Source of the DNA: a bacterium
Lineage (GTDB): Bacteria > B130-G9
Direction: 5' to 3'
Assembly (NCBI GenBank): GCA_021160245.1
Contig: JAGHCW010000097.1
Location: 1-25,516 of the forward strand
DNA length: 25,516 nucleotides
Part shown: in pieces, positions 7,712-25,516 of the stretch
How positions within the stretch are numbered: the first letter of the stretch is position 1
Layout of the letters: each line of letters starts with the position of its first letter
The notes under the pieces: generated by a model
What the model saw: the letters and a program-made list of their open reading frames with translations, nothing else
Told to the model about the DNA's origin: nothing
The model's database searches: none
Program-made: the position numbers and the translations under genes

Positions 7712-7717
7712 CCTCGG

Positions 7718-7736
7718 CCGTCTTGGGACGGTTTTT
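7718..7736 (+). terminator. Short intrinsic terminator after the ABC operon
   Basis: CCGTC (7718-7722) pairs with GACGG (7727-7731) around the loop TTGG and is followed directly by TTTTT (7732-7736). The stem is only 5 bp, extendable by wobbles. Its placement 6 nt after the permease stop supports the call. Confidence 0.6.
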
Positions 7737-9186
7737 CGCGGTTGAATCGATTTGCGGAACGGAATGTGAAGTCGTATTCTCGTGCCTTGAGCCGGCCACG
7801 ATTTACATCGCCGCCGGAACCTACAGCGCCTTAACCAACGGGGAGGCTTTCCCGCTTCAGATGCGGTCCAACGTGTCGCTCACCGCCGCGGGCGCCGACA
7901 CGACGATACTGGACTGGATGCGGAGACTCTTGCCTACCACGTCATCTATTGCAGCGACCTGGCCAATCTCACAACTGAGGGTCTCACGATAACCGGGTGC
8001 GTTGCCAACGGAAGTCATATCTACTACTCAAGCGATTGGAAGGGCGGGGGCATCTGTTTAATCAATTCAGAGGTGACGATCCGCGAGTGTAAAATAGTTG
8101 GGAATATGGCGAGCTACGAAGCGGGTATCTGGTGCATAGACTCATCCGGAAGTATATCTGGCTGCGCAATATCGAGGAATAGTGATCGCCCTGGATCGAC
8201 TTCCAGGAGTCGGGGCGGCGAGATCTGTTGCGGCCATTCGGCCATGACGGTTGATGGGTGTCAGGTCTCGCGGAATACGGCAGCCAAGGGTGCAGGTATT
8301 TGTTTATAGGTGGGATCTGGCTCGATTCTAAACTGTGCGATATTGCATAACGAGGCGCCACCCAGCTCGGACGCTGGAGGTGCTGGCGGCGGCATCCATT
8401 GCCGAGGGTCTTCTCCTGAGATCGAAAACTGCACTGTGTATGCCAACAGAACCGAGCTCGGCGGCGGAGTTTACTGCCCTTCGGAGGCGTGGCCGACGAT
8501 CATAAATAGCATTCTCTGGGCTAACGGGGACGAGGTCCGTTTGAGCTAGCAGACAGGGATAACAATCCAATACTCCTGCATAAGGGGCGGATATTCTGGC
8601 GTCGGTAACATCTCGGCCGATCCGCTATTCGTGAGTGGGCCGCCGGGTGACTACTATCTCTCCTGTGAGACGGCTGGGCAGGCCGAGGACAGCCCTTGCA
8701 TCGACGCGGGGAGTGACACGGCTGAAGCTCTTGGCCTCGATGAACTCACGACCAGGACGGATTGCGTGCCCGACTCCGGCGTTGTCGATATGGGTTATCA
8801 TTATCCGCTGGGCTCCGATGAGTGTCCATCGATCGACTGCTTGCTGAATGATGAGTTGTTCTTCCCTGGCGACGAGCTCGTCAGCTCCGTCGGTATCAGC
8901 AACCCGGGGCCAGATGTGACGGTCGATCTCTATGTCGCATTCGTCATGCCGGACGGGGCGATCCTGTGCGTGTCTCCGACGGATTAGTTTTGGGATATTC
9001 CCGTATCAAACCGACATATTCCTGCCAAATGGCCTCTCGATAGGGCCCGTGACTCTTGTCAATATGACCGTTCCAGACGGCCTAAACGGCGACTTCCTAT
9101 TTGCCGCCGTGCTATCTACACCGGGTCAATTCGAGATAATCGGCGAGAACTCGCTCTTCCCGTTTGCTATCTGCGCTATGCCTTGA
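7737..9186 (+). pseudogene. Decayed right-handed beta-helix (DUF1565-like) surface protein
   Basis: Three segments read as one protein of a known type. Frame one to about 7914 gives ATIYIAAGTYSALTNGE and VSLTAAGADTTILD, a DUF1565-like opening. After a 1-nt frameshift, the next frame (about 7917-8984) gives beta-helix repeats such as GGGIHCRGSSPEIENCTVYANR, then ISADPLFVSGPPGDYYLS and DSGVVDMGYHYP. It is interrupted by TAG at 8307-8309 and 8547-8549. After another shift near 8985, the last frame runs to the TGA at 9184-9186 (IFLPNGLSIGPVTLVNMTVPDGL). No signal peptide or proper N-terminus precedes it, because the reading frame enters from inside the permease gene. Intact relatives are usually secreted or cell-surface proteins. 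The 3' end overlaps the convergent OsmC gene by 11 nt. Confidence 0.8.
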
Positions 9187-9737: not shown

Positions 9738-10949
9738 TCAGGCCGGACGCGCCCTCCGCATGACCCATTCTACGGTCTGCCGCGCAGTTCCATCCGAGAC
9801 CTTCTGATGTGTGGGCAGATTGATGACCTCTTTTGCTGCCTTTTCCGCCTTGGGGCACATCCCCTCCGCGTAGCCAAAAAGCCTCGGATTCGCCTCTCTG
9901 GGGTGTATCGGGCAGTCGAACCAGTCCCCGAGCTCGATGAGGCGCGATGGAGCTTTCTTGAGGACTTCGTCCTTATTCTGCACCCGCACGGGGTAGCGAA
10001 CGAAAGCGACCTCAGCGTCATGCGGCAATGTGGGGACACTCCAGCCATTCTGCAGCAGAGCGTCGCGATATAGCTCCGAGATGTGCTTGCGATGGGCAGC
10101 ATTGTCGTTTAGCGACTCAACCTCGTGAAGCCCAAGCCTCGCCTGACCGGGCGACATCAGCTTGAAATATCCGTCCGGCATCTGAGGTGTCAGGTCGAGT
10201 GGGCAGGATGAGCCGATGAGAATCTTGCTCGAAAGAGCGCGATATAGCGACGTAACCAGACCCGAGGTTCGTGGAAAGTAGAACCAATGGTGGATGAGAC
10301 ATTGCAGCATCAGCAGGCGTTCCTCGCGGCGCGAGGGCTTGATACACTCCTGCTCCTGATATGCTCTGATTTCCTCGGCAAGTGAGGCGCCATCTGTGGC
10401 GACTATTCCGCCGAGGCCGGTCGTATAGGGTTTGTTCCACTGACTGCTAAAGAACGAGGCGATGCCGAACGTGCCGAGCTTTTGGCCATGAATTGAGCTG
10501 CCGAGCGCGTGACAGCAGTCCTCGATAATCGGCAGACCGTGTCTATTCGCCCAATCTAAGAGCTCATCAACGTCGGCGGGTATGCCATAAGTGTGCTGGA
10601 TGACGAGGGCCTTGGTGGTCTTTTGAAGCGCCGCATCTAACTTGCTGGGATCGATGTTGTATGTGTCGGGAATGATGTCAACGTAGTTGCTTGATGCGCC
10701 GAGATAAGCGATGGCCGCGGGAACTACGACGCATGTGTAGCCCGGAAGTATGATCGAATCCCCTTCACCGACGCCAAGCGCCTTTAGAATCGAGTAAAGC
10801 CCCACTCTGCCCTTCCAGAAACTGAAAGCGTGGCGCGTTCCGAGCCAGCTTGCGAAAGCATCCTCGTATTCTCGAATGGCGTGAGCCCGCGCCTCGTCAT
10901 CCAATCCGAGAATCTGGGACAGCAGCAGGCGGCTTTTTGCGAGGCTCAT
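9738..10949 (-). CDS. DegT/DnrJ/EryC1/StrS-family PLP-dependent sugar aminotransferase
   Basis: 403 residues from ATG 10949, which overlaps the upstream GT2 stop as ATGA and has a GGGGAG-type site close by. An upstream in-frame ATG at 10994 would overlap the neighbour by 49 nt and adds an unrelated N-terminus. The fold-type I hallmarks are present: IIEDCCHALGS with Asp144 (pyridine nitrogen contact), SSQWNKPYTTGLGG with Lys173 as the likely PLP Schiff-base lysine, and HTYGIPADVDELLDWA. The family aminates nucleotide-linked keto-sugars, giving amino sugars for surface glycans. The position at the end of the polysaccharide locus fits. A 6-bp stem at 9719-9724/9736-9741 begins in the stop codon but lacks a U-run, so termination is unclear. 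The exact sugar is unknown. Confidence 0.88.
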   Translation of the reverse strand: MSLAKSRLLLSQILGLDDEARAHAIREYEDAFASWLGTRHAFSFWKGRVGLYSILKALGVGEGDSIILPGYTCVVVPAAIAYLGASSNYVDIIPDTYNIDPSKLDAALQKTTKALVIQHTYGIPADVDELLDWANRHGLPIIEDCCHALGSSIHGQKLGTFGIASFFSSQWNKPYTTGLGGIVATDGASLAEEIRAYQEQECIKPSRREERLLMLQCLIHHWFYFPRTSGLVTSLYRALSSKILIGSSCPLDLTPQMPDGYFKLMSPGQARLGLHEVESLNDNAAHRKHISELYRDALLQNGWSVPTLPHDAEVAFVRYPVRVQNKDEVLKKAPSRLIELGDWFDCPIHPREANPRLFGYAEGMCPKAEKAAKEVINLPTHQKVSDGTARQTVEWVMRRARPA

Positions 10950-12085
10950 TCCGCTCCCCGCACGGGTTGCCATCGCCCCGATTTCTTGCCACAAAGAAAT
11001 TTGAGAACACCTATCAATGCAGCGGCGTTGACGGCGCAGAATGAGAGTGGTATCGCCGTGAGTCTTGAGCTCTGACCCTTCTTCTCAAGAAGCAGACCGA
11101 CAGCGGCGAGCATATAGAAGGCCAGTTGGGCCACGAAGGCCGCCTGAAAGATAAGACTGTCGAGAAGAAAGCAGTTGGCGACTAACATCCCTATCAGGAA
11201 GAACGGAACGAGCCAACGCAGCAGCTTATGCGAGATCAGACCCCACGAGTGAAGCGGGTATTTTATGGGATTCAGGATAGCCCTGTTGAGCCAAAGCCCC
11301 CGCAGGTCTTTCGAGACGATTCTCGCCTTGACTTTCATCCCGCCTCTGACGTCAGTTGGGAGCAGTTGGCCAGTAACAACCGCATCCGCCTCGGCAACGC
11401 ATTTCAGACCCTTTATGCAGACCATGAGTGGAATCGCGAAGTCGTCCCCTATGTCCGCGTTCAGAGGCGAAAGGACCTCGCGCCTCGCACCAATCAACCA
11501 GCCTGATGCCATGGCGAGGCAGCCGGCATCGCTCTCCCACCGTCTGAGCGCCCGCTCATATCTCCAATAGGCACCCTCGCCGGTGGAGCGATCTCCGCTG
11601 CCGGCGGGCGTCGGTTGACATGTCACAAAGCCCACTCTCGGGTCTGCAAAAGACCGCACAAACAGAAGCAAGGCGTCATGCCTCAACATCACATCTGCAT
11701 CCGAGAGGATGACAATCTCGCCCGACGCCTCGGCCATTCCTGCATTCTGCGCCTCGCTCTTGCCCGTATTCGATAGCAGAGCGAGAACCTTGATGCCTCT
11801 GTCCTGATAAGTTAGGGCGATGTCCTCGGTCCGGTCAGTTGAGCCGTCTGAGACGACGATGATCTCCAGCTTCTCGCGCGGGTAGTCAAGCGCAAGCGTG
11901 TTTTCAATCTTCTGCGCAATCGATGCCTCCTCATTGAACGCCGCGATAATCACTGAGACATAAGGCTCAATAGCCTGCTTTGAAACGTAAAATGGACTCA
12001 GCCTGGATAGCGAGAAGACGCAGAGCGGGTAGCAGAAGTACACGTAAATCACTACGCCAAGTAGGATAAGGAATAGTGTGGTCAA
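10946..12085 (-). CDS. Membrane-associated family 2 glycosyltransferase
   Basis: 379 residues. An N-terminal membrane helix (about 3-28) is followed by a GT-A domain: VSVIIAAFNEE (43-53), VVSDGSTD with Asp80, and the metal-binding DAD at 129-131 in ILSDADVML. A later GDDF and RIVSKDLRGLW occupy the acceptor/QxxRW-like region. Two to four C-terminal hydrophobic segments follow (about 290-355). The architecture resembles processive or membrane-embedded GT2 enzymes that use nucleotide sugars on the cytoplasmic face. The stop overlaps the aminotransferase start by 4 nt. The upstream CapK-like gene is 93 nt away. Donor and acceptor are unknown. Confidence 0.9.
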   Translation of the reverse strand: MTTLFLILLGVVIYVYFCYPLCVFSLSRLSPFYVSKQAIEPYVSVIIAAFNEEASIAQKIENTLALDYPREKLEIIVVSDGSTDRTEDIALTYQDRGIKVLALLSNTGKSEAQNAGMAEASGEIVILSDADVMLRHDALLLFVRSFADPRVGFVTCQPTPAGSGDRSTGEGAYWRYERALRRWESDAGCLAMASGWLIGARREVLSPLNADIGDDFAIPLMVCIKGLKCVAEADAVVTGQLLPTDVRGGMKVKARIVSKDLRGLWLNRAILNPIKYPLHSWGLISHKLLRWLVPFFLIGMLVANCFLLDSLIFQAAFVAQLAFYMLAAVGLLLEKKGQSSRLTAIPLSFCAVNAAALIGVLKFLCGKKSGRWQPVRGAE

Positions 12086-12178: not shown

Positions 12179-13576
12179 TCATGCCCGAACACAGCCGTCT
12201 TGGTTGATCTGCGAGATGACGGCTCGGAACTTGCCTGAGGAGGTCCGTTCGATATGATCGACCAGAATAGTATCTATACGCATCTTTTCACCTACGCGGC
12301 TCCTGAGGTCTCTTATCGCGGCTTTTGACGCATCATCGAAACGGTCCCTTGATATAGGAACAATCCTGACGACTAGCCGCTCGGGCTCAACCTGCACGAC
12401 TTGGACCTCCTTGACGAATGCTGTGCTATGGAAGGCCGGACTAAGCCTGCCAATGTGGCGACCATCAGGTGTTACGATAACATCATCCTCTCTTCCCAAG
12501 ATGTGATCAAGAACCTGACCTACACGTCCACATCGACAGCGATTCACCTTTGAGACAACCAAGTCCGACATTTTGACACAGATCATCGGCATCGTGTAAT
12601 TGACAAGACTTGTGCATATTGGGTTGAACTGTCCTTTTTCCCCGTCATTGGCTGGTCCAAAATCAACGGCAGAATACTCGGGGTTAATGTGATACGTTCC
12701 CTCCTCGCATTGCGTGACTAGAATCGTTTGCTCGTTTGCGCCATACTCGTCGAATATCTTGCAGCCGAGTTGCTGCTCGATTGTCTGCCTCTGATGCTCA
12801 AGAAGTGTCTCGGAAGATGTGATTATCGCCTTTGGCCTGACATTTGAGATGCCCTTGTCTCTCATGTATGCCGCGATGGCATATATTGAAGAGGGGTATC
12901 CAAATATCTCAATCGGGGCGATCCGCGCCAAATGCTCGCAATAGGCTCCGAGATTATCATCAGAAAGGTGATATGATGAATAATGCCATTTGTCATTCAC
13001 TATATCATATCGCCAGAAGGGAGGATGCTGCCGCTCAATCGGAGTGATTTGCCTCCCTCCGAAGCTGGCCGTCCTATGCCTCTCTATCGGTAGTCCAGCC
13101 CAACCTCTTGACCTGTCGCGAAACGCATAATTCCTCCGCAGATCTTCCGCAGAGACAAAGGTAGCTGTGGGTGTTCCCGTGGTTCCGCTTGAGTGCGTAA
13201 TATAAATCTTGTCCTGAACGCCTTCTGCAACAAGCGCTCTCCCGAGGCGCTTAAGATCTTGGCTCGTCATCACCTCAAGCCCTCTCAAATCCTCAACTCC
13301 TTCAACACGATTCGGGTCTATCCCCGCTTCCTCAAATCGTCTCCTTTGAAACGGAACCCTCTCGCAAGCCCATCGGACGAGTTTTCGCAGTCTCGTCCTT
13401 TGAAGCTCCGCCATTTCACTCTCCTCGAACCACTGGCTCTCCATCAGCTCATTGTAATAGCGCGTGAACTCGCCACCGCGGCGGCGACGCCGAATCATCA
13501 TTCCATAGGCCGAAACTGCGAGGTTTTGGCCCAAGACTGGCAGCCTGTCGTATATCCGCTGGCTTAGGCTAGTCAT
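12179..13576 (-). CDS. CapK/PaaK-like adenylate-forming enzyme
   Basis: 465 residues. It belongs to the phenylacetate-CoA ligase/CapK superfamily. The ATP-phosphate-binding loop is SSGTTGTPT (129-137), EYGANEQ supplies the adenine-site motif, and the C-terminal RTSSGKFRAVISQI carries the catalytic lysine. A CRCGR Cys pair near residue 350 resembles the structural cysteines in this family. Family members activate a carboxylic acid as the acyl-adenylate and often transfer it to CoA. The CapK branch is repeatedly found in capsule and O-antigen loci without proven chemistry. It overlaps the upstream GT4 gene by 8 nt, so it belongs to the same transcript. It may supply an activated acyl group for amino-sugar decoration (inference). 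Confidence 0.85.
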   Translation of the reverse strand: MTSLSQRIYDRLPVLGQNLAVSAYGMMIRRRRRGGEFTRYYNELMESQWFEESEMAELQRTRLRKLVRWACERVPFQRRRFEEAGIDPNRVEGVEDLRGLEVMTSQDLKRLGRALVAEGVQDKIYITHSSGTTGTPTATFVSAEDLRRNYAFRDRSRGWAGLPIERHRTASFGGRQITPIERQHPPFWRYDIVNDKWHYSSYHLSDDNLGAYCEHLARIAPIEIFGYPSSIYAIAAYMRDKGISNVRPKAIITSSETLLEHQRQTIEQQLGCKIFDEYGANEQTILVTQCEEGTYHINPEYSAVDFGPANDGEKGQFNPICTSLVNYTMPMICVKMSDLVVSKVNRCRCGRVGQVLDHILGREDDVIVTPDGRHIGRLSPAFHSTAFVKEVQVVQVEPERLVVRIVPISRDRFDDASKAAIRDLRSRVGEKMRIDTILVDHIERTSSGKFRAVISQINQDGCVRA

Positions 13577-14705
13577 TTACTTCCCCGGGAGCTTTAGAGC
13601 GCGACGAATCGCTCAACACGCTCTCATAAAGGATCACTGTCTTGGCGAAATAATCGGGATGCTCAATCGTGCTAAGCTCCGCGATGATCTCATCAACATG
13701 TTCCAGGGCATACTCGACCTTCTCCGCAAGTTCGCTGGCATCCCCTATCTTGAATAGTATAACACCCTCCGGTCGAAAATCAGTATCGCTCGCGACGACT
13801 GGTTTGCATAATGCAACTCCCTCGCGCACGAATGACGAGTCGCCATCAACCATCGTGGGTCTGATCATTACATCGGCAAGTTCCTTGCAGATGGTTAGCG
13901 CAATTGGGTGAGGGAGGTCACCTGGCATGAGAACGCTCCCAGATAGCGACTTCTTCTCCACTATCTCTGCACATATTGTTTTGTCAGGTCCTTTTCCCAT
14001 TATGATCAGGCCTGCGTTTTGGTAAAGAGATCTTAGCTCAGCAAATGCCGCAAGTAGAGTCTCCCACCCATAAATGCGTTCGAAGACTATCCCTGAAACA
14101 AGGACCGGATTGTGCGAGGCGCAAAAATCGATGATCTCGTGAGGCAGCTCTTTCTTGGCTATTGTGTCGGATAAATAGTGCCGACAGAATGCCGGAATCA
14201 AGCTCACCTTCTCTTGGGTTGCGCCCAGCGAGAGCACAGCCGCCCTAATTCTCTCGTTCACGCAGATGATCGCGTCTGGGAAGGACAGACCTAATCTCGC
14301 GGCCCATCTTCTACTGATGCCGAAACCGCGCACCCTCTTGGGGAAAGAGCCGCCGTGAACCGTCAGCACCATCCTTCGACCGGCGATCTTAATGAAAGCT
14401 CCCATCAATAGGCTGGCCCAGAAGTTGCCATAGCTCGAACAGTTTATATGAACGATATTCGACGGGGTCCGACAAAGCAACCATATTGCTGAGAAGTACT
14501 TGAGCAGACGCCCTCCTCGAGGCGCAAGGACGAGCTCGGCCTTGCCTTTTCTCTTATCTCTGCCGATGTCGATCACTTTGCAGTCGAAGCCGTTTCCCAT
14601 GAGGTATGCCGAAAGGCGCTCAGCGTATATCGACATTCCCGCGTAAGGTGGCGGATAGCTGCAGACAAGAACTATCTTCGCAATGCGACGCTCAGCCAAG
14701 CTCAT
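13569..14705 (-). CDS. Family 4 glycosyltransferase (GT-B fold)
   Basis: 378 residues. The N-terminal Rossmann half begins AKIVLVCSYPPPYAGMSIYAERLSAYL, whose glycine-rich loop is typical of GT4. The C-terminal half has PVLVSGIVFERIYGWETLLAAFAEL, LIIMGKGPD and the donor-site region FVREGVALCKPVVASDTDF, matching the EX7E neighbourhood in shape though not exactly. It would add a sugar to the growing glycan at the cytoplasmic membrane face. The 3' end overlaps the CapK-like gene by 8 nt. The broken acetyltransferase ends 54 nt upstream of its start. The sugar is unknown. Confidence 0.88.
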   Translation of the reverse strand: MSLAERRIAKIVLVCSYPPPYAGMSIYAERLSAYLMGNGFDCKVIDIGRDKRKGKAELVLAPRGGRLLKYFSAIWLLCRTPSNIVHINCSSYGNFWASLLMGAFIKIAGRRMVLTVHGGSFPKRVRGFGISRRWAARLGLSFPDAIICVNERIRAAVLSLGATQEKVSLIPAFCRHYLSDTIAKKELPHEIIDFCASHNPVLVSGIVFERIYGWETLLAAFAELRSLYQNAGLIIMGKGPDKTICAEIVEKKSLSGSVLMPGDLPHPIALTICKELADVMIRPTMVDGDSSFVREGVALCKPVVASDTDFRPEGVILFKIGDASELAEKVEYALEHVDEIIAELSTIEHPDYFAKTVILYESVLSDSSRSKAPGEVND

Positions 14706-14759
14706 ACCTCAGAAGAAAGATGCGCGGAGTTTGATCCCTGTCGTAACCCTCTGGTTCTA

Positions 14760-15343
14760 TCATTTCCTTTCTTCTTCTCTGAAATCGCGTGGCGGTACTA
14801 TGACCCTTGCGGGTACACCACCGGCAATCGCATCGGCTGGGACGTCCTTCGTTACTACAGCGCCGGCTGCTACTGTGGCGGCCTCTCCAATCGTAACACC
14901 TCCAAGTACTAGCCAAGATAGGCCCCTCGCATGATGATGATCGGCCTGTTTGCCCATCCGGTCCGCGTCCGTCCGTGCATGGCGAAGACAATCGAATAGG
15001 ACAGCACGCAGTTGTCCTGTATCTGCAGCAGCTCCGGATGCGTATCATCGAGATAGCACCGCATCCCAATAAAAACGTTCTTGCCAACGGGATACCCAAC
15101 GATTCGATAAATGGCAATACGAATACAGTTGAACGGAATGAAGGGGGCGATGACGACGTTAAGAAACTTGCGGATGTACTTCCAAATCAAGAATGGAACC
15201 GAATGCTTCTCAGCCCAATAGTGCATCCTCCTTCTCAGGACTTTCTCGAAGAATAACTTTATGAACCACCCGCCTACCTTATCGTCCTCTTGAGATGGCA
15301 GGTTCTTACCGAACCACCATCCGAAGACATGTCGCATTTGCAT
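14760..15343 (-). pseudogene. Frameshifted hexapeptide-repeat (WcaF/LbetaH-type) acetyltransferase
   Basis: The first frame (15343 down to a TAG at 14909-14911) encodes 144 residues: a helical N-terminus with [28 protein letters not shown] and [12 protein letters not shown], typical of left-handed beta-helix O-acetyltransferases. The natural continuation, [37 protein letters not shown], is encoded in another frame ending at 14760-14762. A deletion of a few bases near 14905-14915, not a multiple of three, explains the break. No homopolymer is present to suggest programmed slippage. The start ATG 15343 has AAGGAG 6 nt upstream. Such enzymes acetylate sugar hydroxyls or amines in capsule and O-antigen synthesis. 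The gene is probably inactive, or the sequence contains an error. Confidence 0.82.
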
Positions 15344-15362
15344 AGAGCGCTCCTTTCATGTT

Positions 15363-15376
15363 TGCCAGTACTGGCA
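15363..15376. repeat. 14-bp perfect palindrome before the acetyltransferase
   Basis: TGCCAGTACTGGCA is a perfect inverted repeat located 20 nt upstream of the acetyltransferase start (minus strand), in a 156-nt gap. A second dyad, CAATACG (15393-15399) with CGTATTG (15410-15416), lies beside it. It could be a regulator site or a transcript hairpin, but no strong -10/-35 pair accompanies it. Confidence 0.5.
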
Positions 15377-15499
15377 TGTCTCTAGCAGATGGCAATACGT
15401 ATCCTCTAGCGTATTGGCCATTCGCTCAACTCATGACCCGGATAGGTCTATCTCAAGCATGGAAACGGCATACCTTCGCGTATTGTGCGACCATTCATT

Positions 15500-16642
15500 T
15501 CATTGAATTAGCCCCTTCTCCCTCAGACAGATTTCATAAACCCGCTGGAGACCACGCACCATGGAATCCATGCTGAATTCTGAACTCACTTTCCGAAGTC
15601 CTGCCTGGCCCATTTCACGGCGAAGTTCAGGCGAGTCCAGAAGCTGCAAGACGCGACTCGTCATCGCTGCCACGTCATCACACGGAACCACGAAGCCCGT
15701 CTTGCCATCCTCAACTATCTCCTCTGTCCCGCCGGCGGCAGTCGAAACCACGGGGCAAGCAACAGCTCCCGCCTCAAGAAGCACGTTGGGCAGACCCTCT
15801 GATCGAGAAGTTAAACAGACAACGTCCATTCCCGCAAGCAGCCTATTTGCCCCACGCACGATGCCGGGAATTACTACTGAGGCGCCAATCCCCCTCTTTG
15901 AAACCTCGTCCTTCAACATTGGCATCAGCACGCCATCTCCTATTAGCAGCAGTTTGGCCATGGGGTGTACCTTGAGGACTTCGCAGAAAACGTCCAGGAG
16001 CATAATATGGTTCTTGTTCTCATCCATTCTCCCAACCGTCCCGATGACCTTAAACCCGTTCTCGATTCCCCAAGACCTGAGCTTATCACGCGCAAACTCC
16101 CTGGACTCAGGCAATGAAGGGATGTGGACACCGTTTCTCACTACGTGCACCGGTCCTTTTCGGATGGAGCGGCTGGCAAGCTCATTTGCCGCCGCCTGGG
16201 AGTTTGCAATCAAATGGTCAACGGCAGTGTATGAGAGGCGGCTGAGGACTCGGTTTATACGTCCTCTCGCTTTTAGAGGGTCACTTCTCAGGTTGCCTAT
16301 ACATGCTTCGGCCCGGCCGAGACGGGAAGTGAGAGCGGCATACAAATTGTTGGAGAACATCCAGGAGTGGACAATGCTTGGCCGGTAGGATCGCACGATC
16401 CTCACCAGCCGCATCAAACGTGCCACCCTCCCGCTCAATTCCTCTGGAAACACCTCAATACTCACGCCTGTCGCTCTAACATCTTCAAGCCAGTGGTTTA
16501 TCGGGTTGACGATGACGAGCTTGTATTCAAACCTTTCTCGACCGACACCTTGCATGAAACGGCACAGCTGGCGCTCTGCGCCGCCCGCCCCCAGCATGCT
16601 GACTATGATGAGAATCCTATCAAGTGCCCTATCAGAGCCCAC
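15500..16642 (-). CDS. Family 4 glycosyltransferase
   Basis: 380 residues. The N-terminal GT-B half opens DRILIIVSMLGAGGAERQLCRFMQG, with the AGGAER loop found in many GT4 enzymes of polysaccharide loci. The second half has VIGTVGRMDENKNHIMLLDVF, LLLIGDG, and the donor-binding EX7E stretch RSEGLPNVLLEAGAVACPVVST. It then has the usual GGTEEIVEDGKTGFVV. It would transfer a hexose-type residue from a nucleotide sugar, linkage unknown. It overlaps the upstream polymerase/ligase gene by 11 nt, indicating one transcript. Confidence 0.93.
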   Translation of the reverse strand: MGSDRALDRILIIVSMLGAGGAERQLCRFMQGVGRERFEYKLVIVNPINHWLEDVRATGVSIEVFPEELSGRVARLMRLVRIVRSYRPSIVHSWMFSNNLYAALTSRLGRAEACIGNLRSDPLKARGRINRVLSRLSYTAVDHLIANSQAAANELASRSIRKGPVHVVRNGVHIPSLPESREFARDKLRSWGIENGFKVIGTVGRMDENKNHIMLLDVFCEVLKVHPMAKLLLIGDGVLMPMLKDEVSKRGIGASVVIPGIVRGANRLLAGMDVVCLTSRSEGLPNVLLEAGAVACPVVSTAAGGTEEIVEDGKTGFVVPCDDVAAMTSRVLQLLDSPELRREMGQAGLRKVSSEFSMDSMVRGLQRVYEICLREKGLIQ

Positions 16643-18128
16643 GAGAAGACCCTGTCAGCCGATTGCGCGGCGCTGAATTGCTCCTAGACTCAACTGTCCC
16701 CTTATCCGGTCTCCCAGCCGTAACTCGATACCAGCCTTCCAAAGCAACTCCAAAAAGGAAATATACAAACATCGAACGGTAGGATATTGTGAAGCCACTT
16801 AGCACAACGTAAACAAAGAACGGAAGCCTGGCGTTGACTTGGAACTGGTCTGGCCGCGACCTAATTGTCCTAAGGAATAAGGTAAGATGCCATCCGATGA
16901 AGAGCAACAATCCTATTGATCCTGTCTCAACCGCGACTCGCACGGTCTCGTTATGGGCCTTTGTGCCCTTCTTGCGCCCTTCAATTGCTCGCAGGCGGGG
17001 ATTCCAGTACTCGAACTGTGTCCAAAACGAGCCGATTCCTGTCCCCATAATAGGATTCTCCTTGAAAATGTGTGCAGCAAGCCCCCAAATGTCCTCGCGG
17101 CTAGCCAAGTTCTTCTGCTTGAATCCCTTCTCGAAACGACTCGTAATATACCCATCAGTCATGAAATCCGCGCCCAGAAAACACAGATACGCACTGACCG
17201 CAATAACCGCCCCCAGTAACATCTTGCGGCCCGAGGCTCTTGCGAACGAGAGCACCATTATTGCCCCCCCAATCGCAACGGCAACTCCTGCCCCACGCGT
17301 CATGCTCAACAGAACGCCGAACGCTGAAGTGGCAATACAGAAAGCAAAGACAAGTCGTCTTCTGGGCGCCTTGGTTGAGAGGAATAAATGGAGGGCCACC
17401 ATCAACCCGGCGCCCATTATCATCGATGCTTGGTTAGCTCCCATGCCTGGAAGAGTGAACCGGGTTTTGCCGCTAATCCCAAGCATGTTCCGAAGAAATA
17501 GCGATGTTACAACGTAACTCTGTTGCCCTATCAGGAAGCAATACAATATCTGAGTAGTCTGCTCCCTGTTCGGTCTGAGCGCGCCAAAGAGAGCTAGAAG
17601 CGAAAAACCTGCAATTACATGTAGCCACCACACCGTCGCTCGCAAAACATCACTGACGAGAATAAGCGTCAATCCCGACCACAGAGCGTAAAGAAAAAAG
17701 ACCTTTTGTGTAATTCCGGTGCCCCTGGGCCAAAGCCGCTTCATTGCGAGAGTCCGACTGATCAACGCAAGCCCACAAGCTATGCTGTAGTAAATTACGA
17801 AAAGCCATCTATTGTGAGGCAAGTAGTAGAGATAGAGGAAGTCGGCGCCAGCAAAAATCGCCAGGATCGCGAGACTAGTGAAGTAGTCACCTTTGATGCT
17901 CTGTATGACACCGTATATCATGGCTAGAAAGAGCGCCGCTGTCCCAACGAGATAGACCGGAGAACCCCAAGGAAATGCGTGGACTGCTGCTACCCAGGAT
18001 AGGCATGACGAAGCCAACACAATGGCAAACCTTCGGAAGGCTCGCCCGTCGGATATTCCGTCAGCCGCGGCTCGCCTCGCCAGATGCCTTCTGTGAGATT
18101 GTGAGCTTGGTGACTGAACAAAGGACAA
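16632..18128 (-). CDS. O-antigen ligase/polymerase-like membrane protein
   Basis: 498 residues with about eleven hydrophobic segments between residues 35 and 470. The large periplasmic-loop signatures of the Wzy/WaaL/Wzx-independent O-antigen ligase superfamily are present: SMTRGAG (275-281), SREDIWG with ENPIMGTGIGSF (343-368) and KAHNETVRVAVETG (390-403). The AHN histidine belongs to the known motif essential in WaaL-type enzymes. Members polymerise repeat units or ligate glycans to lipid A core or other acceptors at the periplasmic face. Sequence alone does not say which. The first 30 residues are charged and poorly conserved, so the start could be later. It overlaps the downstream GT4 by 11 nt. 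Confidence 0.87.
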   Translation of the reverse strand: MSFVQSPSSQSHRRHLARRAAADGISDGRAFRRFAIVLASSCLSWVAAVHAFPWGSPVYLVGTAALFLAMIYGVIQSIKGDYFTSLAILAIFAGADFLYLYYLPHNRWLFVIYYSIACGLALISRTLAMKRLWPRGTGITQKVFFLYALWSGLTLILVSDVLRATVWWLHVIAGFSLLALFGALRPNREQTTQILYCFLIGQQSYVVTSLFLRNMLGISGKTRFTLPGMGANQASMIMGAGLMVALHLFLSTKAPRRRLVFAFCIATSAFGVLLSMTRGAGVAVAIGGAIMVLSFARASGRKMLLGAVIAVSAYLCFLGADFMTDGYITSRFEKGFKQKNLASREDIWGLAAHIFKENPIMGTGIGSFWTQFEYWNPRLRAIEGRKKGTKAHNETVRVAVETGSIGLLLFIGWHLTLFLRTIRSRPDQFQVNARLPFFVYVVLSGFTISYRSMFVYFLFGVALEGWYRVTAGRPDKGTVESRSNSAPRNRLTGSSRGL

Positions 18129-18134
18129 TCTAAG

Positions 18135-19334
18135 TCACCTGATCCCTTCTATGAACGCGCCGGATTGCGTTTGTGAATGACTCTTCAGTGGCATCTGCCA
18201 CCAATCCTCGAGCAACTCACGCACCGAGAGGAACAACGCCTCAAGAGTCTGAGCCTCCGCCCATTTGCGACTCTCCAAGGAGATGGCTCGATAAAGATCG
18301 GGGTCCCCAATCAGCCGCCGAACCGCCTCGGCGATATCTCGGGGCCTCCTCGGCTCAATCAGAATACCTCTCTTCCCCTCACCAAGGATTTGGGGAACAA
18401 CGCTCACGTTTGATGCTATGCACGGGAGACCGTAGAGCATCGCCTCGGTTAGCACCTTGGGCCATCCCTCTGAACTCGATGCCAGAACCAAAATGTCAGC
18501 CGCCGCATAGTGCTTTCCTAACTCACTTGGCGGTGTCATTCCGTGGAACTTGATGCAGTCGGAGAGCTCCATCTTCCTCACCAGAGCCTCAAGTTCGCTC
18601 CGCTCTTTCCCATCTCCCACAATATCTAGCGTAACCTGTAAACTGAAATCCCTTCTGAGGATGGCCACGGCGGAGATGATGTCATCAACACACTTGACCG
18701 CGCCCAGCCGCCCGACGAAGAGCAGCTTTGGATTCTCAGGAGCTGTTCGCCGGTGTGCCTCCTCGCGAGTCTCATCCACTTGGTTCTGTGTCAACGTAGT
18801 GTTGAAAACAGGCACAAGATGAGAGCTCTCGAGGCTGTCCCGCATGCTGTTTATTAGAACAGGCCCGCCAAAGCTTTTCCTAGCCATTAGGAATCTCTGG
18901 GCCCAGCAGGTCCATCGCCCCACCCCAACGGAGGCGCCCCACTCCCCAGCGAACTTGCCTACCCGTGGTTTTCGCGAGAACCGCATGGCTATCAATCCTA
19001 GCAGGCCCAAATTCCCCGGACATCTGACCTGAATCGCATCACAGGTTCTTATGGTCTGATGGATCTTGGACAACATTTTAGGTATAGAGAGCATCAGTCC
19101 GAGCTTCTTGCCCAATGTTAGGCCGCCGGCCACAGGGCATGGCCTCAGGCTTATATTGTTCATCTCATAGGCGTACGCGCCTTCAGGAGGCGCCCCATTG
19201 ACCAAGGGAACGCAGATCTCCACCTCGTCAAAGAGCTTCGCCCAGTAATCGATCTCCCGCACAAACCCGCCCAGAGCAACGAGGCGGCTTCCCATCCTCC
19301 AATGCCCAACGTGGGTTATGATACCGAGCTTCAT
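18135..19334 (-). CDS. Family 4 glycosyltransferase
   Basis: 399 residues from ATG 19334, chosen because AGGAGG lies 9 nt upstream and the protein then begins MKLGIITHVGHW, a normal GT4 opening. An in-frame extension to 19508 would run into the upstream gene and is composed of unlikely charged sequence. The C-terminal half has KLLFVGRLGAVKCVDDIISAVAIL, LDIVGDGKERSELEALV and the EX7E region SSEGWPKVLTEAMLYGLPCIAS. It lies 32 nt after the preceding GT4 and 6 nt before the polymerase gene. Donor and linkage are unknown. Confidence 0.92.
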   Translation of the reverse strand: MKLGIITHVGHWRMGSRLVALGGFVREIDYWAKLFDEVEICVPLVNGAPPEGAYAYEMNNISLRPCPVAGGLTLGKKLGLMLSIPKMLSKIHQTIRTCDAIQVRCPGNLGLLGLIAMRFSRKPRVGKFAGEWGASVGVGRWTCWAQRFLMARKSFGGPVLINSMRDSLESSHLVPVFNTTLTQNQVDETREEAHRRTAPENPKLLFVGRLGAVKCVDDIISAVAILRRDFSLQVTLDIVGDGKERSELEALVRKMELSDCIKFHGMTPPSELGKHYAAADILVLASSSEGWPKVLTEAMLYGLPCIASNVSVVPQILGEGKRGILIEPRRPRDIAEAVRRLIGDPDLYRAISLESRKWAEAQTLEALFLSVRELLEDWWQMPLKSHSQTQSGAFIEGIR

Positions 19335-19366
19335 TGTCTTTTTCCTCCTGACGGTCTTACTTGGCC

Positions 19367-20518
19367 TTATGTGGAACTCGAACTCAGGCATTGCTCGTAG
19401 AAAGCGATGTTCTTTCTCACCACCACGTCGGCCGAAAACTTCTGCAGCACCCTCTCCCTCGCGTTTCTGCCCAGCCTCTGGCCGAGAGCCGGATCGTCCA
19501 GAATACACAATATCTTCTCTGCGATGTCACTCGGGCTATACGTATCGCACAAGAGGCCGCTAACACCATCCTCGATTATCTCCGGACCAGGCCCAGTCTT
19601 CATAAAGACAACAGGACGACCGCAAGCCATCGCCTCAATAGCTACAATCCCGAACGACTCCTTCAGAGAGGGAAAGACGCAGACCGCGGCCCCCGAATAC
19701 AACTTGGCGAGTTCCTCGTGCGGAACCGGCCCCTGGAATCGGACTTTGGGCGCAAGATCGCTGGACATCTGTGACTTGAGATCCTCAGTTACAGAACCAA
19801 GACCTCCCTCAACTCGGCCATCCTTACCAGCCATGATCAACCTGGCCTCCGGCCTCTTCGACAGGATGATTCGCATCGCCTCAATGAGCTGATATACGCC
19901 CTTGAACCTATAAAGTGTGCCAGCAAACACGATTAGGTCTTTCTCAGATGTGACCTCGTCGCTCGAAGAAAAGAGATCAGTATCGACGATACTCGGAATA
20001 ACGACAGAGACTTGCGGATGCAGATCATGAATGCGAAGGGTCTGATCCGTTACGAATTGGCTGACGCCAACAATGATCTTGGCTCTCTTAAGGGATCTAT
20101 GCTGGAAAGCATCCGTTAAGAAGCGCGGACGTTCTCCTACACAAGACTTTATGAAACGATGGCTTCCCTGCAACCTCACTACAGTCGGAACTTTGAGATC
20201 GGCCGGGACAGAGGGAAGGCTGGATTCTGTTGCCTCAATCAAATCTATCTCGCCGCGCGAGCATAAATGGCGTAGATATCGGCGCATCGTCAAGAGATTG
20301 ATGAACACTCCCAGCTTTCTGACTCGAGAACGCCTCAAATAACGGACTTGTACTCCGCAATCATCGATCTCTTGTGCCTGCTCTCCAAAACCCAGCACTA
20401 GTACACTATTTCCTTCCGAGACGAGCTTTTGTGCCAGAACCTGAACAAGAGTCCCAATACCTCCATGCTTACCAACGGTAAGTGAGGGATATTCCGAGCA
20501 TAGGTAACAAATTCTCAT
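19367..20518 (-). CDS. Family 4 glycosyltransferase
   Basis: 383 residues. It begins MRICYLCSEYPSLTVGKHGGIGTLVQVLAQKLV, the typical GT4 N-terminus with its glycine-rich acceptor loop. The C-terminal half has LIVFAGTLYRFKGVYQLIEAM, RLIMAGKDG, and ESFGIVAIEAMACGRPVVFMKTGPGPEIIEDGVSGLL, the donor-site EX7E region. It follows a 117-nt gap containing a good sigma70-like promoter, so this gene may head a secondary transcript running toward 9738. Confidence 0.93.
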   Translation of the reverse strand: MRICYLCSEYPSLTVGKHGGIGTLVQVLAQKLVSEGNSVLVLGFGEQAQEIDDCGVQVRYLRRSRVRKLGVFINLLTMRRYLRHLCSRGEIDLIEATESSLPSVPADLKVPTVVRLQGSHRFIKSCVGERPRFLTDAFQHRSLKRAKIIVGVSQFVTDQTLRIHDLHPQVSVVIPSIVDTDLFSSSDEVTSEKDLIVFAGTLYRFKGVYQLIEAMRIILSKRPEARLIMAGKDGRVEGGLGSVTEDLKSQMSSDLAPKVRFQGPVPHEELAKLYSGAAVCVFPSLKESFGIVAIEAMACGRPVVFMKTGPGPEIIEDGVSGLLCDTYSPSDIAEKILCILDDPALGQRLGRNARERVLQKFSADVVVRKNIAFYEQCLSSSST

Positions 20519-20606
20519 TCCTTACTCCCTGCAGAAGTTCTCAGTGCTCTTGACCTGTAAGCGAGATGATCGTGAATGCGGCTTATAAGCAATTTTCTCA
20601 ACATAT

Positions 20607-20635
20607 ATGATACATAATAATCGCTCAGATATCAA
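20607..20635 (-). promoter_or_regulatory. Internal sigma70-like promoter in the polysaccharide locus
   Basis: On the minus strand TTGATA (20635-20630) and TATCAT (20612-20607) are each 5 of 6 matches to consensus and are separated by exactly 17 nt. The site lies directly after the stop of the upstream gene and would give a leader of about 80 nt before the GT4 start at 20518. Confidence 0.6.
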
Positions 20636-22033
20636 TCACGTTATCGATAGCACTTCCTCAATTATCCGCTCCGAGCTATTGCCCATTTGACCACCCAGTT
20701 GGCCTTGAATCAATTCTTTCCGCCTCTTGCTGAGCTTCCGAGGCTCATTCAGAGTCTCGTTCACAAGGGAAGTCAAACGCCCCTGAGATGTGGCCAGTTC
20801 GATTGCCCCGCACTCCGCTATCGGCCGATAAAGGTCTTGTTGCCAGAGCTTTTCAAGCGAAATGGCTGGTGCCTCGATATCAGGAGGGTCAAACGCCACG
20901 TTTATCACAGGCTTGTCCATGGCTGCGAAGTCCAGTGTAACCGTGGATGGCACGCTTATGTTGAGAACCGAATGGAAGATAAGGTTCGCCCACGTTTTAA
21001 CATCATCATAACTGCTGCATATCCATGCCACGCTCTTGTTATACTCCCATTTCGGGTCGCAAAGATGGCAGTTGGGGAATTCCTCGGCCAAGTCCAGGAA
21101 CTCAGGGTCAGAGCCTATAGGATTGAGCCTCACCACAACCTGCGGGTCAGAAATAACCCGCCCATAACGAATGTCCTCAAGCAGCGCTCGGAGTATCCGC
21201 GCCTCGTGCGCAACTGTCCGAGGCGCCGCGGCAGAATAGCATATTATGGGGCGTTCCGTGTCGAGGCCAAGTATCTTAGCGAATTCTGCCCTCGGCAGAA
21301 TAAGTGAAGCATCAAAATGAAAATCAAATTGGGGCGAGCCGACTGCGACAACGCTATCAGGTCTAAGCCTGGGGTTCCGTTCCAAGATGAATCGCCTCAT
21401 GTCCTCGCTAAAAACGAGCTGCCGCTCCGCATCCCAGAAAATTCGGGCGCATTTATGGATGTTGTTCCAGTTCTTCGGAAGGCCAACCGTCTTCACTCCG
21501 ATGTCTTTCCCCGCGAGGCAGAAGATAATGCTCGACACGCTAAGATAATCAGCCGCTAGGATAACGGATGGATCGAGCTCTTGCAGCAATCTCTGAATAG
21601 CGGGAACACCCCTGGACGCTTTTTTGCCGATGTGACGTTGAATGGAATCGATTACATTGAGGCTGGTCCTGTTGGCAAGGATGGGTGCAATGGCGGCTTT
21701 AACCCTGGCCAAGTAGCTCTTCGGCTTGGGCTTGAACGAGTAGTACTCAGTCGAGACGAACTCCCCTTGAGATTCTCTCCACACACTATGTGCGTTGTTA
21801 CCCAAGGCCTGAATCCGTGCAAACAGCGGCGGCACTGTGAAATCCGGAAGCTGCACGACACCGACACCGTCGGGCAGGTGGTTCACGAAGTCGCTGTCCA
21901 CAATCCTGGAAACCACCGTCACCGGCATATACCTCGCGAGTTTCTCAATGAACCCGCTATATATGTATGTCCTCACCTCGCTGCCCCAATGGACAAGCAA
22001 GATGGCGCCGCCGTTCCGGGCAGTTGACGTCAT
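20636..22033 (-). CDS. Unassigned surface-polysaccharide protein, probably GT-B-like
   Basis: 465 residues. I do not recognise a specific family. It opens with a Rossmann-like GGAILLVHWGSEVRTYIYSGFIEKLARYMPVTVVS. A middle section (PSVILAADYLSVSSIIFCLAGKDIGVKTVGLPKNWNN) is followed by VGSPQFDFHFDAS and RPIICYSAAAPRTVAHEARILRALLEDI. It ends with a donor-site-like ISVPSTVTLDFAAMDKPVINVAFDPPD. The order resembles GT-B proteins such as CDP-glycerol glycerophosphotransferases or LpxB-like enzymes, where a conserved Ser-Thr and a GKPVI-like turn line the donor pocket. The EX7E motif of GT4 is absent. There is no membrane segment. It lies between GT4 genes in the same orientation, 61 nt from the upstream one. 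Confidence 0.6.
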   Translation of the reverse strand: MTSTARNGGAILLVHWGSEVRTYIYSGFIEKLARYMPVTVVSRIVDSDFVNHLPDGVGVVQLPDFTVPPLFARIQALGNNAHSVWRESQGEFVSTEYYSFKPKPKSYLARVKAAIAPILANRTSLNVIDSIQRHIGKKASRGVPAIQRLLQELDPSVILAADYLSVSSIIFCLAGKDIGVKTVGLPKNWNNIHKCARIFWDAERQLVFSEDMRRFILERNPRLRPDSVVAVGSPQFDFHFDASLILPRAEFAKILGLDTERPIICYSAAAPRTVAHEARILRALLEDIRYGRVISDPQVVVRLNPIGSDPEFLDLAEEFPNCHLCDPKWEYNKSVAWICSSYDDVKTWANLIFHSVLNISVPSTVTLDFAAMDKPVINVAFDPPDIEAPAISLEKLWQQDLYRPIAECGAIELATSQGRLTSLVNETLNEPRKLSKRRKELIQGQLGGQMGNSSERIIEEVLSIT

Positions 22034-22094: not shown

Positions 22095-23279
22095 TCACAG
22101 AAACTTCTCGATGTAGCTCCGAAAATCTCTAGCCATTTGGTCTATCGTGAATCTCTCTAAAACGGTTTGCCGAGCGTTGTGGCCGAGCCTTGTTCGAAGT
22201 TCCTCGTCGTCAAGCAAGCGAACGATTTGCTTCGCCCACTCCTCAGGATCAAGGTAGTTGTCAATCAAGATGCCGTCCTTCTCGTGAGTTATGATCTCAG
22301 GTATCCCTCCTCGCCTCGAACAGATCATTGGCAGTCCACCCGCCATCCCCTCTATTACCGTCATTCCAAATGGCTCTTCCCATAACGATGGTACCACTCC
22401 AATCGAGGCATTCGCCATCCTCTGAACGATTTGGTTCGGGGGAAGGTTGCCGGCGAGCAGGACACTTCCCGGGCCAAGGCCGTGGGCCAACTTTTGAAGC
22501 GCTGCCTCGTATCTACTGTTGGTGAGTTGCCCCGTCTGAGCGTCGTGGCTAGTCGCACCTATTATCACCAGCTGAGCTTTGCCATAGCGGTGGCGAACAT
22601 ACTTCATGGCGCGAAGGACAATATGCGCCCCCTTTGTCTCGTGGAGTCGTCCCACGAACGTGATCCTCTGCGATCTGTCGCTGAGAAACTTGTCCTTGGT
22701 CTCACGGACCCAAAAACCAGCGTCGAGCCCATTGTGAATGACCGCGCCGTCGATCTTGGTGTTCCGAAGGGCGGACCGAATCGAGAGGAGCACATGCTTG
22801 GAGACCGCAATCACACCATCCAAAGATGGGCAATGACTGCGCAAATAGCTCGCAGGCTGGACGTTACGGAGATATCCCAAGATAGGCCGATTGACTCCAG
22901 CCTTTCTAAGAGCAGTTGCGTAATGGGGGCGATTATTTAGGACAATCACCCGCGGTTTCAGACGGGCAATGGTCTTCGCGGCGTATACTAGATACCTCCT
23001 CTCTTGGTAAATATCGAAAAAACGGTAATAGAAATGACCAAATCGGCTGTTGGACTCGCGAATAGATCGGGGATGAACTAGTTGATGGAAATAGCTGAGA
23101 GACGGGGATTCCATTGCCGGAGGCTCTCCCAACTTTCTAAGCCATGGTGAGATAACTCCGATTTCCAGACCATCTAAGCGATGCATCAATGTATGCAAGT
23201 TTGTCTGAGGCGCTCCCCCAGAAACGGGAGGGATAGGGAGAATCGGCTTGCTGAGCTGCGTAATAAAAAGTATATCCAT
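22095..23279 (-). CDS. Family 4 glycosyltransferase
   Basis: 394 residues from ATG 23279, giving MDILFITQLSKPILPIPPVSGGAPQTNLHTL, a typical GT4 opening. A 12-codon upstream extension to 23315 lacks family character. The C-terminal half has RITFVGRLHETKGAHIVLRAMKYV, QLVIIGA, and EEPFGMTVIEGMAGGLPMICSRRGGIPEIITHEKDGILID, the EX7E donor site. The gap before it (23280-23422) holds only a 5-bp dyad and no clear promoter. It follows the asparagine-synthase-like gene in the same direction. Confidence 0.93.
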   Translation of the reverse strand: MDILFITQLSKPILPIPPVSGGAPQTNLHTLMHRLDGLEIGVISPWLRKLGEPPAMESPSLSYFHQLVHPRSIRESNSRFGHFYYRFFDIYQERRYLVYAAKTIARLKPRVIVLNNRPHYATALRKAGVNRPILGYLRNVQPASYLRSHCPSLDGVIAVSKHVLLSIRSALRNTKIDGAVIHNGLDAGFWVRETKDKFLSDRSQRITFVGRLHETKGAHIVLRAMKYVRHRYGKAQLVIIGATSHDAQTGQLTNSRYEAALQKLAHGLGPGSVLLAGNLPPNQIVQRMANASIGVVPSLWEEPFGMTVIEGMAGGLPMICSRRGGIPEIITHEKDGILIDNYLDPEEWAKQIVRLLDDEELRTRLGHNARQTVLERFTIDQMARDFRSYIEKFL

Positions 23280-23422
23280 AGTTTTCTCAGGCAAACCGTC
23301 GCACCATGCAGCCAAGATTTATCATTGCTGCTGCGCCTCCGTTGAGAAGATGTCCCATGATTGTCACCAAGCCCTATCCGACAACATCGGACAGATCATT
23401 GAGCTTCCTCTGTGCCTCCTAA

Positions 23423-25297
23423 TCATAGCTGACTATTTTCTAGCCATAGCTCAAAAAGGACAAGAGCGCCGACTTTTCGCTGTGCCGTGCGGCTCACGCC
23501 ATTCGACCGCTTGTATTCGCTCACCGCCTCTAGCACGGTTTGGTACCGAAAAAGCCCTTCAGCTTCAATCTTCTTGCGATCAAGGTGCTGTTTGATGAGC
23601 TCGCCCTGATTGTGGTCTAGAAGCATTGACTGCGGGTAAACGAAAGCCGCGGGAGCCCTTCCTGCGAACTCGGCAGGCAAGTATCTTGTCAAGAGGCTTG
23701 TTATCAGGAGCTTCTCCTGATTCTCATCGAACAAGTGCTTCGCAGGTATCTCGCGCAAGCGTTTCGCTAGACGGCGATCCATAAAAGGAATCCGAGCAAT
23801 ATGCGTGGTATGCGAGGCTGGATCAACAACCCGCCGCAAGAACTTCGACGGGACAATATATCGGCAACTGATCTCAGTTCGTGCCTCCCTAGCCTGCCCA
23901 CGCTGGAATGTGGAGAACAGCTTGAAGGGTCCCGTCTCTGACAAGTCGCAATTGAAGCCCAAAAGCGATTCAAGATCATCTTGGTTCCAATGTCCGCTCT
24001 GTAGGAACAAGTCCTCGATTGCATCGAAGTTAAACAGCCCACGATACCGTCTGACTTTCCGGATGGGGGCGAATCTAAAGAAAGCGGCCAGCGTCGCACG
24101 CATAACCCGTGGGACGTGCCGCGTATAGTCGAAAGATAGCTGTTTAATCTTTGAGGGCGTAAGCGCAAACATGCCACCCGCGCCCGTTCCATCCATAATT
24201 GATACTACGTCTGAGGGGATTCTCTCACATGCAAGGAGTGTCGGGATGGCAGCCCAATCCCCAAAAGGCTGATCAAAACATTTAGGCATCTTCCTCAGCC
24301 CAGCAACGCACTCGGCGGATGTAAACTTGAAACTGGTGTGTTTGATTCCCAATAGCCGCGCGATTTCGCTAGCAACAGATGCTTCTTCATCCCACTGTGC
24401 ACCCATGAAACCAATCGTGAATGCCTCGGTCCGATCCCTATCTATGTCTGCCGCAAACGCAGCAATCAGGGAAGAGTCAACGCCCCCACTCAGGAAAACA
24501 CCCGTTCGGCCTGACTTTGACATCCTGTCAGCAACAAGTTGCCTGAAAACTGATTCGAAACCGTCCAACGCCTCGTCAGTTTCTAGATGCCCATTCCTCT
24601 CAGCAACATCGGAAAGCGCAGGACAGATGAATTCCTCAAATGTCTCCACCGAAAGTTGCCCTGCCTTGAGGATCAGAGCGCTCCCTGGAGGCAGTGCACA
24701 CAGATTCTGGTAAATGGTCCTCGGATGGGGGATGTAAAGACATGACAAAAACTCGCAGAGGGCCTTCTTATCAAGGCGTTTTGATACTTCGCTATGGGCG
24801 AGTATTCCCTTGATCTCTGATGCAAAGACTAGAAGACCTCCTCGAGAGTAATAGAAGACCGGCTTGATTCCGTAAACGTCTCTCGCGAGCACAAAGAACT
24901 TGTCTCTGGGGTCAAAGATGGCGATCGAGAAGGGCCCCGCGAACTTGCTGAAGCACGAGATGCCCCACCTAAGATAGGCTAATCCGATCATCTCGAAAGT
25001 GGATAAAGCTCTTTCTTGGGGTACATCTAGGAGCTCGCCGATGTCGCCCCTATTGTAGATCTCTCCGTCACTCAGGACTCTAAGGCCGTTATCGAGCTGG
25101 GATATGGACCGCATCTGAGCGTATTCTTCTCGAGAGAACTCATCATTGTGAAGCTGCATTCCAAACCCAGCGCTACCAGAAACATAGCTCAAATGCTTGC
25201 CGGTTCCGCGATGTCGTATCTGATGAAGCATCCGATTGAGCTTATCATCAGAGGCCGGCCTCTCGTCAAAGTTCACAAACCCACATATCCCACTCAC
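23423..25297 (-). CDS. Asparagine-synthase-like amidotransferase with degenerate glutaminase site
   Basis: 624 residues from GTG 25297. That start has AAGGAG 8 nt upstream and overlaps the preceding stop as GTGA; the GTG at 25306 sits against the same site and is unlikely. The layout is AsnB-type: an N-terminal class II glutaminase-like domain (1-160) and a C-terminal ATP-pyrophosphatase domain with SGGVDSS (270-276), AFTIGF and PFGDWAAIPT. Family members make acyl-adenylates and amidate them. The glutaminase active site is altered: Ser2 replaces the nucleophilic Cys2 (MSGICGF), Asp77 stands in DGEIYN where Asn is normal, HRGTG replaces HRGPD, and Thr100 stands where Asp98 of the E. coli enzyme falls. 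The ATP domain looks intact, so ammonia-dependent or other-nucleophile chemistry is likely. Its place in a glycan locus suggests sugar-acid amidation rather than bulk asparagine synthesis. Confidence 0.85.
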   Translation of the reverse strand: MSGICGFVNFDERPASDDKLNRMLHQIRHRGTGKHLSYVSGSAGFGMQLHNDEFSREEYAQMRSISQLDNGLRVLSDGEIYNRGDIGELLDVPQERALSTFEMIGLAYLRWGISCFSKFAGPFSIAIFDPRDKFFVLARDVYGIKPVFYYSRGGLLVFASEIKGILAHSEVSKRLDKKALCEFLSCLYIPHPRTIYQNLCALPPGSALILKAGQLSVETFEEFICPALSDVAERNGHLETDEALDGFESVFRQLVADRMSKSGRTGVFLSGGVDSSLIAAFAADIDRDRTEAFTIGFMGAQWDEEASVASEIARLLGIKHTSFKFTSAECVAGLRKMPKCFDQPFGDWAAIPTLLACERIPSDVVSIMDGTGAGGMFALTPSKIKQLSFDYTRHVPRVMRATLAAFFRFAPIRKVRRYRGLFNFDAIEDLFLQSGHWNQDDLESLLGFNCDLSETGPFKLFSTFQRGQAREARTEISCRYIVPSKFLRRVVDPASHTTHIARIPFMDRRLAKRLREIPAKHLFDENQEKLLITSLLTRYLPAEFAGRAPAAFVYPQSMLLDHNQGELIKQHLDRKKIEAEGLFRYQTVLEAVSEYKRSNGVSRTAQRKVGALVLFELWLENSQL

Positions 25298-25516
25298 TCT
25301 GAGCACTCCTTTGACTGAGAGCCTGACTCAGGCTGGGCACGCCTTACCCTATCGGTAGTTCTCCTTAAGACCTCATAGTAGAAATCTTCCAGCTCCCTTG
25401 TCTGCTGCTCAAGGTCGAAGTTCTCCGCAATCCACTTCACAGCATTTCGCCCCATCTTGCGCCGCAATTCTCGATCATCAATTAGAAGCCCTAACTTCTC
25501 CGCGGTAGCCACAGGG
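25294..25516 (-). CDS. Glycosyltransferase C-terminus, truncated by the window edge
   Basis: About 73 residues are visible, open at the right edge. The sequence PVATAEKLGLLIDDRELRRKMGRNAVKWIAENFDLEQQTRELEDFYYEVL is the characteristic last helix region of GT4 enzymes, lying after the donor-binding site. The GTG at 25512 is not a real start, because the frame continues beyond 25516. The TGA stop overlaps the next gene's GTG by 4 nt, so translation is coupled. Confidence 0.8.
   Translation of the reverse strand, partial: PVATAEKLGLLIDDRELRRKMGRNAVKWIAENFDLEQQTRELEDFYYEVLRRTTDRVRRAQPESGSQSKECSE

Follow-up and report, generated by a model that had tools for sequence, protein, structure and literature searches.

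An AsnB-like protein with two degenerate active sites, a probable retained pseudoenzyme of a bacterial glycan locus

Relatives of the asparagine synthetase AsnB that have lost only the glutaminase are known, and these still produce amides or lactams. Beta-lactam synthetase, carbapenam synthetase and the lasso peptide cyclases share the AsnB fold, have no working glutaminase and use amines. The AsnB-like protein described here lies in a 25,516-nucleotide window, the whole stretch of DNA that was analysed. It has the domain order, the length of ~625 amino acids and the place among glycosyltransferase genes of WbpS, WbqG and the XrtA-type eps_aminotran_1 enzymes (TIGR03108), but differs from them in that both of its active sites are degenerate. 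With E. coli AsnB (1ct9) and human ASNS it has in common a full-length fold (Z ~30), the pyrophosphate loop and Lys429, whereas Cys1, Arg49, Asn74, Asp98, Asp351, Glu352, Tyr357, Glu398 and Lys449 of E. coli AsnB are absent. Beta-lactam synthetase, carbapenam synthetase and the lasso cyclases are also structural matches, with the AsnB fold in common, but they are active adenylating enzymes, and from the AsnB-like protein the Asp and Lys of the synthetase site are missing. The best match in the PDB, in sequence and in fold, is the hydroxyamidotransferase TsnB9 (7ylz), whose chain carries the catalytic Cys where alignment places Ser2 in the AsnB-like protein.

The gene (23423..25297; minus strand, as are all features below unless stated) encodes 624 amino acids from a GTG start, with GATase_7 and Asn_synthase domains. 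An AAAGGAG ribosome-binding site (25306..25312) stands 8 bases 5' of the start codon. The GTG at 25297 overlaps the upstream gene by four bases, start and stop codons sharing GTGA (25294..25297) in an arrangement typical of translational coupling. The ribosome site and the overlap show the start at 25297 to be sound, and therefore the N terminus MSGICGF is well supported and Ser2 is no artefact of start-codon choice. An alternative GTG at 25306 was rejected, as it would fall on the ribosome site itself. Across the 624 codons there is neither a stop nor a frameshift, and the composition by codon position resembles that of neighbouring genes. The upstream gene is truncated by the end of the contig, 219 bases before the AsnB-like start codon, and only its C-terminal end is present (25294..25516); its peptide, read by eye, is glycosyltransferase-like.

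The initial annotation had described the loss of four glutamine-site residues, and alignment with E. coli AsnB and homologs agrees. Ser2 (codon AGT, 25292..25294) replaces the nucleophile and aligns with Cys1 of E. coli AsnB; HRGTG (residues 29–33, 25199..25213) aligns with HRGPD, Thr-Gly taking the place of Pro32-Asp33; Asp77 (25067..25069) stands where the oxyanion-hole Asn74 is expected; and Thr100 (24998..25000) where the glutamine-binding Asp98 is expected. There is also a fifth loss. Arg49 aligns with Gln48 or, in alternative alignments, with Glu, and never with Arg. Glu76 (Glu79 in the AsnB-like protein) and Glu100 are retained. For AsnH, glutaminase activity is listed as requiring Cys2, Arg48, Asn73, Glu75 and Asp97, and the C2S mutant is inactive (PMC3885529). 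Four of these five are changed in the AsnB-like protein, the Glu alone being kept, so that the predicted loss of glutamine hydrolysis, which the initial annotation had also drawn, is well supported. Cys5 was considered as a substitute nucleophile and rejected, because Cys5 also occurs in most homologs whose Cys2 is intact (MCGICG).

The synthetase domain is degraded as well. Its pyrophosphate loop, SGGVDSS, is intact in the alignment (24470..24490). The segment DGTGAGGMFALT (24158..24193) stands against the canonical SG(E/D)G(S/G)DELFGGY, with the loss of Asp351, Glu352, Gly356 and Tyr357, and VDPASHTTHIARIPFMD (23777..23827) against DRxSMAxSLExRxPFLD, with Asp389, Met393 and Glu398 lost and Arg400 and Asp405 kept. 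At 23642..23659, RAPAAF aligns with RxKxGF, removing the essential Lys449. Gly451 is replaced too. Individual replacements include Asp351 by Gly374, Glu352 by Gly, Tyr357 by Thr, Glu398 by Ile500 and Lys449 by Pro549. Among ~140 homologs, Asp351 is conserved in 139 of 140, Glu352 in 138 of 140 and Lys449 in 133 of 136. The residue set for carboxylate adenylation (SGGxDSS with Asp351 and Lys449; Asp359 and Lys545 in AsnH) is accordingly incomplete, with only the loop kept. Hence the earlier statement that this domain keeps SGGVDSS and other conserved motifs holds for the loop and for some single residues (Arg400, Asp405 and Lys429), while the remaining conserved motifs are replaced.

Losses extend beyond the listed catalytic residues. 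At columns conserved to at least 97% the AsnB-like protein differs at 18 of 51, where the median homolog among those compared differs at 0 and the most divergent, E. coli AsnB, at 7; at columns conserved to at least 95% it differs at 23 of 64. Judged from the alignment, this pattern of departure is beyond chance. Both AsnB-superfamily domains nevertheless score above their gathering cut-offs (PF13537, 65.5 against 25; PF00733, 159.2 against 21). The glutamine-hydrolysing asparagine synthase model TIGR01536 gives 219.7 bits, under its curated cut-off of 267.1, and five canonical glycan-locus relatives reach 505–543 bits with it. The XrtA/PEP-CTERM amidotransferase model TIGR03108 (213.6 bits) and the lasso peptide cyclase model NF033535 (164.7 bits) also fall under their curated cut-offs, 816.9 and 525, respectively. 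A QueC match in PADLOC was discarded, as it reflects only the shared pyrophosphate-loop domain. An AF2 model has a pLDDT of 87.8 and a pTM of 0.90, with a weak stretch from ~380 to 440, and leans on an input alignment of canonical enzymes. It matches 7ylz over its full length (Z 33.3) and 1ct9 as a full-length AsnB fold (Z 30.8, 471 residues, 3.1 Å).

The nearest relatives found (loci L157 and L158; ~30% identity, 245 and 241 bits) have their catalytic residues in place at both sites, and they adjoin GT4 genes in a glycan locus. Descent of the AsnB-like protein from a canonical enzyme of this kind, a GT4-adjoining amidotransferase of the sugar-acid-amidating type, therefore appears most likely. 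A relative in genome G057 is a canonical AsnB followed by a UDP-sugar dehydrogenase gene, with a CapK-like gene on the same contig. This arrangement fits the role of WbpS in making uronamides, PGN_1234 (WbpS) being required for uronamide formation (PMC7468200). In the tree, the terminal branch of the AsnB-like protein is the longest, at 4.84 where the median is 0.7, and the protein belongs to no supported group.

The initial annotation had proposed that a conserved clade with the same losses would support a distinct function; none was found among the sampled relatives. A single-protein search of genome and viral contig collections gave no close relative. Nothing above ~34% identity was found in the protein's own phylum (only 4 genomes, all relatives at ~34% or less), in the phyla of G047, G059, G057, G050 and G028, or in 386 spread genomes and plasmids, where those searches run with a strict E-value limit show only that they detected nothing closer. 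No locus in a pattern scan of 80 had the combined losses, and in the literature we found no AsnB pseudoenzyme. The doubly degenerate form is so far a single sequence from one genome. The fetched chromosomal and other relatives that were read residue by residue have canonical or almost canonical key positions, with the exception of two that lack the catalytic Cys, and these were rejected as members of the same clade since neither shares the Asp351 loss. One (L026, G001:C54:2836) is a lasso-cyclase-like AsnB homolog with Ser2 and Asp351 from G001, a genome of the same family. The other (L075:12646-14487, Ectothiorhodospira shaposhnikovii) has an intact synthetase motif and adjoins a nucleotide-sugar dehydrogenase gene; its locus, an exosortase glycan locus, encodes a canonical AsnB as well.

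Directly downstream of the AsnB-like gene is a GT4 glycosyltransferase gene (22095..23315), followed by the rest of the glycan cluster (12179..22033), which contains an unassigned glycosyltransferase-like gene, GT4 genes, a Wzy_C polymerase/ligase, a broken acetyltransferase and a CapK/PaaK-like ligase. A GT2 glycosyltransferase and a DegT-type sugar aminotransferase lie beyond (9738..12085). One cluster protein of 465 amino acids (20636-22033) has no Pfam match and a weak match to BFO_1060-type glycosyltransferases. The acetyltransferase (14692-15343), of left-handed beta-helix type, has a frameshift near 14905 and its tail in another frame. On the plus strand, at ~7670-9180, frame changes and in-frame stops break up a gene for a repeat-rich, beta-helix-like surface protein. 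Gene order is conserved in G001 (L064) for the CapK-like gene and two of the GT4 genes (12179-16642; 55, 66 and 36% identity), with no AsnB near them in that locus. Unlike in G057, no UDP-sugar dehydrogenase was seen in the visible cluster; nucleotide-sugar dehydrogenase genes are on other contigs of the same genome. Near the AsnB-like gene we recognized no peptide or beta-lactam genes. The host genome is a draft of 244 contigs, 94.8% complete, in which this protein is the sole recognizable AsnB, the two other PF00733 matches being weak and short. Nor did the genome yield a second AsnB that might act as its partner. GatB-family genes are present, and asparagine may therefore be made on tRNA in this host.

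Taken together, these data suggest that the protein is probably a retained, catalytically dead member of the AsnB family, derived from a canonical amidotransferase of a glycan locus. Both sites have lost residues whose necessity is shown by published mutants, while the gene retains an intact reading frame and start signal and its product an intact predicted fold. The initial annotation had instead pictured a synthetase that uses free ammonia or another amine. Continued carboxylate adenylation by the synthetase domain, with free ammonia, an amino sugar or an amino acid serving as the nucleophile, could be argued from the retained SGGVDSS, Arg400, Asp405 and Lys429, from the existence of amine-using AsnB-fold enzymes such as beta-lactam synthetase, carbapenam synthetase and the lasso cyclases, and from the Cys-less Ectothiorhodospira protein. 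It is nonetheless improbable, because the adenylating site has lost Asp351, Lys449 and the Glu352–Tyr357 pair, at positions where the ~140 homologs are nearly all canonical. Human ASNS D367A, altered at what is by motif the Asp351 equivalent, is inactive with ammonium chloride, E364A and E364Q are inactive with ammonia, and the equivalent of Lys-466, which corresponds to Lys449, is reported to be essential in AS-B (PMC6748925). By its five-residue spacing the Glu352–Tyr357 pair appears to match the Glu363–Tyr368 dyad of PesC, in which Y368F is inactive (PMC13060819).

The main alternative to a retained pseudoenzyme is a gene in the early stages of decay. If selective constraint was lost recently, the gene would be on its way to becoming a pseudogene and its protein would now be functionless. 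The many altered invariant residues and the very long branch are in keeping with this, as are the frameshifted acetyltransferase and the broken beta-helix gene, which count against the pseudoenzyme reading as signs of decay (or assembly error) within the contig. We consider decay the less likely account, since the frame is fully open, the ribosome site and coupled start are intact and confidence in the predicted fold is high. In addition, when neutral drift was simulated until invariant residues were lost to the extent observed, with ~35% of residues altered, ~10 stops arose and not one of 300 runs stayed stop-free. This argument rules out long neutral drift and not a recent relaxation. The same two broken genes, together with the fragmented draft assembly and the proximity of the gene to a contig end, could point to an assembly or binning artefact in which the AsnB-like gene is chimeric or foreign. 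This is very improbable, given its translational coupling to the upstream gene, a composition like that of its neighbours and a frame free of stops and frameshifts despite dozens of changes at conserved positions.

As a retained pseudoenzyme, the AsnB-like protein would, on the evidence of its residues, neither hydrolyse glutamine nor adenylate a carboxylate, and its intact SGGVDSS loop could still bind ATP or pyrophosphate. Its role would most likely be non-catalytic, and we propose, as one example, that it might partner the co-translated glycosyltransferases or provide them with a scaffold. That a doubly dead AsnB has been kept in a structural or regulatory capacity, as a non-catalytic and perhaps nucleotide-binding partner within a glycosyltransferase operon, is put forward tentatively, and resting on a single sequence limits its weight. 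A doubly dead AsnB with an open, translationally coupled frame would show that a glycan-locus amidotransferase can be kept for a use other than amidation. The case also carries a caution for the family, in that the glutaminase site considered alone misleads annotation towards an asparagine synthase or an ammonia-dependent synthetase.
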